This document shows, in pieces, positions 1,543 to 37,500 of a DNA stretch of 64,000 nucleotides (positions are counted from its first letter, which is position 1; each line of letters begins with the position of its first letter). Source of the DNA: Miltoncostaea marina. Its GTDB lineage: Bacteria > Actinomycetota > Thermoleophilia > Miltoncostaeales > Miltoncostaeaceae. The notes under the pieces were generated by a model that was not told the DNA's origin, did not search any database, and was given only the letters and a program-made list of their open reading frames with translations. The stretch covers positions 1,426,001-1,490,000 of the forward strand of contig NZ_CP064655.1 of assembly GCF_018141525.1 (NCBI RefSeq), read 5' to 3'. The position numbers were made by a program, and so were the translations under genes.

Positions 1543-1554
1543 GAACGCATGTTC
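1543..1554. promoter_or_regulatory. LexA (SOS) box of dnaE2
   Basis: GAACGCATGTTC matches the actinobacterial LexA operator GAAC-N4-GTTC with a perfect palindrome. It lies 4 bp upstream of the dnaE2 ATG and overlaps the probable -10 element. The same motif appears in front of imuB and of the small gene at 37107-37463. Confidence 0.9.
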
Positions 1555-6676: not shown

Positions 6677-6928
6677 TCATCCCTGGACGAACCAGCGCCC
6701 GTCGGCGGCGTCGCGGTAGACCACGGTGAGCCGGCCGGGCTCGAGGACGAGCTCGAAGTAGTGGCGGTGGACCGGCCGGCCGGTCCACCAGAGGTCCTGC
6801 ACCAGCCAGTCGTCGCGCACGGCCTCGACCCTGCGGCGACGGCCGCCGGCCTCCACCTGCGCCGGCAGGCCCCGCGCGTCCTGCACCACCCGCGCCGGGC
6901 GCGGGCCCCGCAGCGGCCGCAGGCTCAC
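6677..6928 (-). CDS. DUF6504 family protein, coupled to imuB
   Basis: An 83-residue protein whose GTG start overlaps the imuB stop (GTGA), so the two are translated together. The core VEAVRDDWLVQDLWWTGRPVHRHYFELVL resembles DUF6504 proteins, small proteins often found directly downstream of Y-family polymerase genes in actinobacteria. The Trp/Tyr-rich WWTGRPVHRHYF segment is its main hallmark. Function is unknown; the context implies a role with ImuB in SOS mutagenesis. A start further upstream is possible but would lie inside imuB. Confidence 0.7.
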   Translation of the reverse strand: MSLRPLRGPRPARVVQDARGLPAQVEAGGRRRRVEAVRDDWLVQDLWWTGRPVHRHYFELVLEPGRLTVVYRDAADGRWFVQG

Positions 6929-8118
6929 GGCTCGAGCGGCGCCAGCGCCCACCGCCGCTCGGGCAGGCGCGTCCACGGCTCGATCTCGACCACCCGCAGC
7001 AGCGCGTCGTCGCCCTGGGCGGCGCGCACCTGGCGCACGGCCTCGCCCGCCCGCGCCCTGCGCTCCTCGGCGGGGGAGGACACGGCCGTCAGCTGACGGC
7101 CGCCGAGCGAGCCGGAGGCGTCGCCGCCGATCCACAGCTCCGCGACCGGCCCGGTGACCTCGGCCAGGCGCGGCAGGGCGGCCACGGCGAGCCGGCCGGC
7201 GTCGGCCGTGGCCTCGCGGAGCGTCAGGTCACGCGCCCACGAGCCGCCGTCGGCCAGGCGCGCGCGCAGCGTCAGGGTGCGCAGCGCCGTCCCGCGCCCC
7301 TGCGCGGCGCCCGCCAGCTCGCCCAGCAGCAGCCGGGCGGCGGCCTCGAGCGCCGGCAGGGCGCCGACCGGCTCGGGGAAGGCGACCGACGCCCGCAGCG
7401 GGCGGGGCGGGGTGCGCGGGCGCAGGGCCCGCCCGGCCTCGCCGCGCGCCAGCCGCCAGGCCGTCAGGCCGGGGAAGCCCAGGCGGTCGAGCGCGGCCGC
7501 CCGCGGCAGCCCGGCCACCTGCCCGATCGTGCGCAGCCCCAGGTCGCGCAGCGCCGCCACGAGGCGCGGCTCGAGCGGCAGCCGGTCGACCGGCAGCGAC
7601 GCGAGGAACGCGGCGACCTCGTCGTCCTCGAGCACCAGCGCCCGCCCCGGCGCGGCCTCGCGGGCGGCCTGCAGGGCGGCGAAGAGCGACGGGGCGGCGC
7701 CCACCCGGCCGTCGGCGCCCACGGGTAGCGCGGCCCGCACGCGACGCAGCACGCCGTCGAGGCCCCCGTGCAGGCGCAGCGTGCCGCGCGCGTCGAGCGC
7801 CGCCCCCTCGAGGCCGAACGGCTCCACCGCGAACCCCGATGCCTCGAGGCGCGCCATCGTGCGCTCGAAGGCCTCGGCCGCCGCGTCGGGGTCGGCCACC
7901 ACGAGGTCGAGCCCGGGGCAGCGCGCGAGCGCCTCGCCCACCCGCAGGCCGGGCCGCACGCCCTGCGCCTCGGCGGCGGGGGTGCAGAGCCCGACCACCT
8001 GCGGGGCGCCCGGCGGCGGCCCGAGCGCGACCGGCGCGTCGAGCGGCCGCCGCGCGTTGAGCAGCGCGACGAGCAGGGGGAGCCGCGGGATGTGCACGGC
8101 GACGATCACCGAACACAT
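6925..8118 (-). CDS. imuB: ImuB-like Y-family DNA polymerase homolog (SOS mutasome)
   Basis: About 397 residues. The N-terminus (VIVAVHIPRLPLLVAL, then VVGLCTPAAEAQGVRPGLRVGEALARCPGLDLV) is the Y-family palm/finger region in the ImuB form. The catalytic acidic residues of true Y-polymerases are not obvious, as is usual for ImuB. A helix-hairpin-helix (LGLRTIGQVAGLPRAAALDRLG) follows, then the little-finger region. ImuB acts as a hub that brings DnaE2 to the clamp. The ATG at 8118 lies inside the LexA box; a GTG at 8109 just after it is an equally likely start. No imuA/imuA' gene lies upstream. DUF6504 follows with a GTGA overlap. Confidence 0.85.
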   Translation of the reverse strand: MCSVIVAVHIPRLPLLVALLNARRPLDAPVALGPPPGAPQVVGLCTPAAEAQGVRPGLRVGEALARCPGLDLVVADPDAAAEAFERTMARLEASGFAVEPFGLEGAALDARGTLRLHGGLDGVLRRVRAALPVGADGRVGAAPSLFAALQAAREAAPGRALVLEDDEVAAFLASLPVDRLPLEPRLVAALRDLGLRTIGQVAGLPRAAALDRLGFPGLTAWRLARGEAGRALRPRTPPRPLRASVAFPEPVGALPALEAAARLLLGELAGAAQGRGTALRTLTLRARLADGGSWARDLTLREATADAGRLAVAALPRLAEVTGPVAELWIGGDASGSLGGRQLTAVSSPAEERRARAGEAVRQVRAAQGDDALLRVVEIEPWTRLPERRWALAPLEP

Positions 8119-8122
8119 GTTC
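8111..8122. promoter_or_regulatory. LexA (SOS) box of imuB
   Basis: GAACACATGTTC is a GAAC-N4-GTTC LexA operator that overlaps the start codon of imuB. LexA bound here would cover the transcription start. The box being so close to, or inside, the translation start fits a very short or absent leader. Confidence 0.88.
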
Positions 8123-8295
8123 GCGCATGGCCCGGACGCCCGCAAGGAGCCATGGCCTCGGTGCGCTCTCGGGGTGCATCGCCCCGCCGACGACGTCCGG
8201 GGCGGGCCGGGGCGCACCGATGACGACGACCGGACGGGCGCGCCAGGAGGGATGGGGCGGCGGCGGCGGGCCTCCAGGGGCTCCGGGGCGGCGTC

Positions 8296-37106: not shown

Positions 37107-37463
37107 TCAGGCCGCGATCGGCAGGCGCGCCTGGGCGGGCGCCCGCGGCGCCCGGTAGGCGTGCGCCGTGTTGCCCCAGCCGCGCCGGCCCCAGACCGAC
37201 GCCCGCTCCGCGCGCCCGTCGCGCACCAGCGCGCGCAGCGCCTCGCGCACCGACGACAGCGCGGGCCCGCCGGCCTCATGGCCGAAGGCCAGCCGGTCGC
37301 GCACGTCCTCGGCGCTCCACAGCACGTCGGGGCGTGCCCGCAGCACCGCCTCGACCACCGCGGCCATGTCCGCCGCCGTCCACCTCGCCCCTGGACGTCC
37401 CCGCCGCAGGCGCTCCTCCGCTGCCATCACGTCCGCCTCCCCGCGCTCCTCGATCCCCGCCAT
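37107..37463 (-). CDS. SOS-controlled small protein, winged-helix-like, unknown function
   Basis: A 118-residue protein I cannot name. Residues 30-100 (TAADMAAVVEAVLRARPDVLWSAEDVRDRL, then ALSSVREALRALVRDGRAERASVWGRRGWGNTAHAY) look like a winged helix: three helices, then a beta-hairpin with Trp/Gly. It carries a LexA box (37489-37500) that overlaps the -35, and a -10 TAAAAT ends 8 bp before the ATG, so it is probably leaderless. An ATG at 37496 lies inside the box and upstream of the predicted start site. It sits between yebC and ruvC, next to recombination genes. It may be a small regulator or part of the damage response (inference). Confidence 0.7.
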   Translation of the reverse strand: MAGIEERGEADVMAAEERLRRGRPGARWTAADMAAVVEAVLRARPDVLWSAEDVRDRLAFGHEAGGPALSSVREALRALVRDGRAERASVWGRRGWGNTAHAYRAPRAPAQARLPIAA

Positions 37464-37471
37464 GTGCGGGT

Positions 37472-37477
37472 ATTTTA
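37472..37477 (-). promoter_or_regulatory. -10 element (TAAAAT) of the SOS-controlled gene
   Basis: TAAAAT is AT-rich against an about 75% GC background and ends 8 bp before the ATG at 37463. The hexamer 17 bp upstream lies inside the LexA box. Confidence 0.7.
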
Positions 37478-37488
37478 GCACGCCAGGC

Positions 37489-37500
37489 GAACGCATGTTC
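37489..37500. promoter_or_regulatory. LexA (SOS) box of the 37.1-37.5 kb gene
   Basis: GAACGCATGTTC is identical to the dnaE2 box. It covers the predicted -35 of the small gene, with the -10 TAAAAT 11 bp further on, a layout that allows direct repression. Confidence 0.9.

Follow-up and report, generated by a model that had tools for sequence, protein, structure and literature searches.

The stretch of DNA analysed here (the window, 64 kb of the source genome G000, which is a single high-GC contig of 3.37 Mb) contains a small minus-strand gene with an exact LexA (SOS) box in its promoter. Table 1 collects the coordinates, together with those of two further SOS loci in the window. The box is identical, letter for letter, to that upstream of dnaE2, as the sequence-only reading had stated, and the SOS set which that reading had drawn up with dnaE2 and imuB is borne out, with imuB in the window carrying a box of its own.

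Table 1. Positions of the small gene, its control elements and the neighbouring SOS loci in the window
Feature	Position	Strand	Basis or comment
LexA (SOS) box GAACGCATGTTC / GAACATGCGTTC, palindromic operator	37489..37500	.	exact site, -35/spacer region
-10 hexamer TAAAAT	37472..37477	-	11 nt downstream of LexA box
Shine-Dalgarno GGGGAGG	37436..37442	-	5 nt ahead of GTG; same-genus genome G001 has GGAGGAGG, spacing identical
Likely CDS, GTG start, 107 aa, small winged-helix protein	37107..37430	-	conserved start region, codon-position GC, dN/dS
118-aa reading from leaderless ATG at 37463	37107..37463	-	possible, not conserved
Predicted winged-helix core, residues 28-104 of 118-aa reading	37152..37382	-	AlphaFold2 model, Foldseek matches
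C-terminal tail QARLPIAA + stop codon, beta-clamp-motif-like	37107..37133	-	resembles DinB motif; Q, L, I kept in G001
dnaE2 box GAACGCATGTTC	1543..1554		upstream of dnaE2
imuB	6925..8217	-	
imuB box	8111..8122		

The LexA box and the gene behind it

SOS boxes of G000 follow the actinobacterial pattern GAAC-N4-GTTC, whose exact form occurs three times in the window, where shuffled sequence predicts 0.19, and 18 times genome-wide against 4 for the reversed control. When scored with a weight matrix trained on the dinB, lexA, recA, dnaE2, imuB and radical-SAM boxes of six genomes - with the target box left out - the site reaches 19.9, next to 18.7 for dnaE2 and 20.4 for recA (all G000). Accepted SOS genes of G000 and of the same-genus genome G001 score 18.7-30.5 and chance-like sites 13 or less, and within the window only the imuB box ranks higher. 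Our survey brought out a full SOS regulon in these genomes, with boxes at lexA, recA, dinB, dnaE2, imuB, mraZ, one radical SAM gene and a number of uncharacterised small genes; that one and the same survey recovers the lexA, recA, dinB, dnaE2 and imuB boxes argues that the site is the true LexA box of the genus. It is also the box of Streptomyces venezuelae (consensus tCGAAC-N4-GNNCGa), whose LexA regulon has recA, lexA, dnaE2 and the radical SAM gene in common with the one described here (PMC9380542). Other hypothetical proteins are listed in that regulon, and a small winged-helix gene of the present kind was not found in the literature examined.

The TAAAAT -10 hexamer that had been proposed is indeed present, and the box ends at a distance from it that suits a promoter block. 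In the sole orthologue, that of G001, the -10 reads TACGAT, the spacing to the box is the same (11 nt) and the box itself, GAACACACGTTC, keeps 8/8 core bases while two of its four spacer bases are changed, so that box conservation holds in the one relative where it can be read.

The start codon, by contrast with the promoter, had to be revised. The leaderless ATG favoured by the sequence-only reading is lost in G001 through a 10-nt deletion, and both genomes have in common a conserved block, GGAGGCGGACGTGAT, which sets a Shine-Dalgarno sequence 5 nt ahead of an in-frame GTG. For these reasons the product is probably 107 rather than 118 residues long: the open reading frame from the ATG does give the 118 residues that had been reported, yet the GTG-initiated frame is most likely the CDS. 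Codon-position GC of this frame is 0.83/0.65/0.94, and differences between G000 and G001 fall on the three codon positions as 21/23/47. With dN 0.25 and dS 0.70 for the whole gene (dN/dS about 0.35), and dN 0.16 and dS 0.81 for the core (dN/dS 0.20), these figures mark the gene as genuinely protein-coding and as evolving under purifying selection. Judged from operator, promoter and coding signals, it is almost certainly a genuine gene under LexA control.

The protein is encoded in 2/42 family genomes, G000 and G001, at 68-70% identity. No further homologue appeared among 61 relatives or 399 class, 42 family and 397 phylum genomes, nor in GTDB contigs, viral contigs, plasmids or phages; the weak matches that we read were to winged helices of the Fur family, or to frames that were unrelated or overlapping. 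In G001 the gene sits between a VOC/glyoxalase-type and an alcohol-dehydrogenase-type gene (named from sequence), and yebC and ruvC lie elsewhere with no LexA box in the gap between them. This different locus excludes a conserved yebC-ruvC linkage and makes the position in G000, which had figured in the original description, incidental. Since the spacing of box and -10 is nevertheless the same at both loci, gene and operator appear to travel together. We see in this gene a rarely encountered accessory member of the SOS (LexA) regulon, and interest in it is justified less by its location than by its tail and by a family-wide companion, both described below.

Predicted fold and C-terminal tail

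AlphaFold2, run on two sequences (pLDDT 76 on average, about 88 in the core and 44 in the disordered tail), models three helices (30-43, 51-59, 69-81) and a two-stranded wing (86-91, 99-104; numbering of the 118-aa reading). Foldseek matches to this model are generic winged helices only, with Fur as the best solved structure (2xig, E 6e-3) followed by MarR-like and PadR proteins. Thus, the winged-helix look noted from the letters is backed by prediction, and we consider it very probable that the protein folds in this way. That it matched nothing familiar also holds up: Pfam, NCBIfam, PADLOC and PHROGs gave no significant match and none above curated cut-off. Sub-threshold was a match of the G001 protein to HTH_32, a Pfam helix-turn-helix model known from transposases, and a marginal match to the phage tail-tube family PF11836 was likewise set aside as below cut-off. 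Likeness to the N-terminal winged helix of the Fur family is seen in the best structural match and in weak profile matches among relatives, but the protein stops after the winged helix, without the metal-binding C-terminal part or a dimerisation domain, and has no Pfam Fur match. Nor does it belong with ImuA or ImuA', given its predicted winged helix and the absence of a RecA-family match to it.

The tail, which the sequence-only reading had passed over, ends in QARLPIAA in G000 and QMELGIAA in G001. It is less conserved than the core, yet Q1, L4 and I6 are unchanged while neighbouring tail residues vary, a pattern that amounts to a single comparison because the collections searched hold two homologues only. 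In this lineage, DinB carries QLTLPL (G000), QLELPL (G001), QLELPI (G002) or QMELPV (G009). Beta-clamp-binding motifs are described as Q-aliphatic-x-[L/M]-(x)-[F/L], Ile being acceptable in last place and C-terminal tails being a usual site; Ala at position 2 is found in Pol III alpha and weakens clamp peptides (PMC11139829). QMELGI matches this definition and QARLPI does so with Ala at position 2, in either case with two further residues (AA) behind the motif and, in the G000 model, at the low confidence of the tail. Among window proteins, about 0.04% of 10-residue stretches and 0/28 C-termini contain a relaxed form of the motif, figures to be read with the motif having been noticed post hoc among a dozen SOS proteins. 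The small protein and DinB (Pol IV) are thus alike in a C-terminal Q-x-x-L-[P/G]-[I/L] hexapeptide, and dinB too is LexA-controlled in G000; they differ in that the small protein lacks a polymerase domain and, in G000, has Ala at position 2. The resemblance is suggestive rather than proof, and from these residues we put clamp binding by the tail at an even chance.

Candidate roles in the damage response

Our preferred reading, to which we give a probability of roughly 50%, sees the protein as an SOS-induced, clamp-tethered DNA-binding accessory. In the undamaged cell, LexA would occupy its box in the -35/spacer region and keep RNA polymerase out, as expected from the geometry and from established SOS biology; upon damage, RecA-stimulated LexA cleavage would free the promoter. 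The product, presumably one winged-helix DNA-binding domain with a short flexible C-terminal tail (107 aa), could then dock its QxxLxI peptide in the beta-clamp pocket, much as the QLxLPL of DinB would, and the tail might thereby deliver the winged helix to clamps at stalled forks. There it may aid access of the DnaE2/ImuB or DinB polymerases or, alternatively, compete with the replicative polymerase and slow the fork. The clamp-like tail narrows the three roles that had been listed earlier (regulator, mutasome partner, checkpoint protein) in favour of one at the replication fork. With the accessory proteins of the ImuA/ImuB/DnaE2 mutasome, the small protein has SOS control in common; it is not homologous to them and is without a RecA-like or Y-polymerase fold.

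As for the mutasome itself, ImuB of the family has, where the clamp motif is expected, the degenerate QLTAV or QLTAI, or QLTME in G009, and a RecA-family search of the genome returned recA itself as the only real match. The clamp contact of mycobacterial ImuB is made by QLPLWG (PMC10421592). The degenerate ImuB motif, together with recA as sole real RecA-family match, suggests that the mutasome may be organised differently here.

A LexA-controlled transcription regulator, whose winged helix binds specific promoters and relays the SOS signal to a second gene set while the tail has no partner, is in our estimation rather unlikely. Single-domain winged-helix proteins are mostly regulators, and the nearest fold and weak profile matches (Fur, MarR-like, PadR) are DNA-binding domains of regulators. 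This protein, however, has no dimerisation or sensor domain, an adjacent target gene is absent with neighbourhoods that differ between G000 and G001, and the kept Q, L and I of the tail would stay unexplained.

Less probable still is a replication or division checkpoint inhibitor, that is, a small damage-induced brake on the replisome or divisome following the logic of SulA, YneA or SidA. Known SOS brakes are indeed small, lineage-specific and LexA-controlled, and a clamp motif could rival the replicative polymerase; but there is no membrane segment, whereas YneA and SidA have one, and direct evidence of toxicity is absent. Moreover, G002 and G003 lack the gene, which shows that the genus does not depend on it as a checkpoint.

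A last possibility is that the gene is a leftover of a mobile element or phage, a winged-helix gene that came to lie downstream of a LexA box, where phage genes often sit, and that does nothing for the host. This would fit its patchy distribution, differing loci and weak sub-threshold matches to HTH_32 and a GTA/phage family, but is very improbable in view of purifying selection, of phage, plasmid and viral collections without matches and of inspected ORFs flanking either copy among which no phage gene was recognised.

The core of the original proposal, a LexA-controlled small winged-helix gene, came through all computational tests (conserved geometry, SOS-like box score, fold), and the clamp-tethered accessory is the reading that we carry forward. 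If its tail binds the clamp, this lineage would steer clamp traffic by small dedicated LexA-controlled proteins. Lineage-specific small SOS genes are a store of fork-control functions and division brakes in bacteria, of which few are known beyond some model species. In the literature, we found nothing on point for a small LexA-controlled clamp-binding protein, nor for SOS in Thermoleophilia.

Other LexA-box genes of the family

A second small gene codes for a protein whose N-terminal beta-clamp motif, of QL[LIT]LF type, is almost perfect (L026 / L112, G000:C1:991375-991698 minus; relatives L110-L137). Its products measure 98-108 aa in the genus and are encoded in 36/42 family genomes, and in 27/27 copies read an exact LexA box lies at or near the start codon. 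Across 13 aligned sequences the Q and the second Leu are invariant. The protein is without Pfam and NCBIfam matches, and no homology was found between it and the small winged-helix protein. Given the family-wide box and motif of this QLxLF gene, small SOS proteins that target the clamp are a plausible theme in the lineage; the gene is possibly the more important of the two, and keeps the clamp idea testable even if the winged-helix gene should be marginal. One may go further and envisage a new class of SOS effector, a winged-helix protein of minimal size that is anchored on the sliding clamp and acts alongside the QLxLF protein. Part of the damage response would then consist in saturating the clamp with small ligands that compete for it, and the degenerate motif of ImuB might be compensated; we hold this wider idea to be doubtful.

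Another SOS-box protein, of 80-82 aa with the core ERLVGWIAWRTGRNQA (L025 box 1949, L050 box 8812, L059, L066, L083), is conserved, keeps a constant distance from its box across several genera and has no curated family match. At L028, L048, L063 and L067, a small winged-helix-like gene has its LexA box in common with a divergent metY-type sulfhydrylase gene; homology of that gene to ours found no support, with an hhalign probability of 1.2%. Radical SAM genes with a LexA box occur in four genus genomes and G009 (L034, L040, L054, L070, L078).

Upstream of mraZ in the dcw cluster there is a LexA-like box (L042, L061, L082, also L031 and L088), often with a second, weaker box 25-26 bp off; LexA bound the site of an mraZ homologue in vitro in the case of a gut-metagenome sequence (PMC3998124). 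Finally, at L081 and L084, from two further genera of the family, the LexA-like box GAACAGATGTTC stands some 145-196 nt ahead of a large gene resembling that of an adenosylcobalamin-type ribonucleotide reductase.
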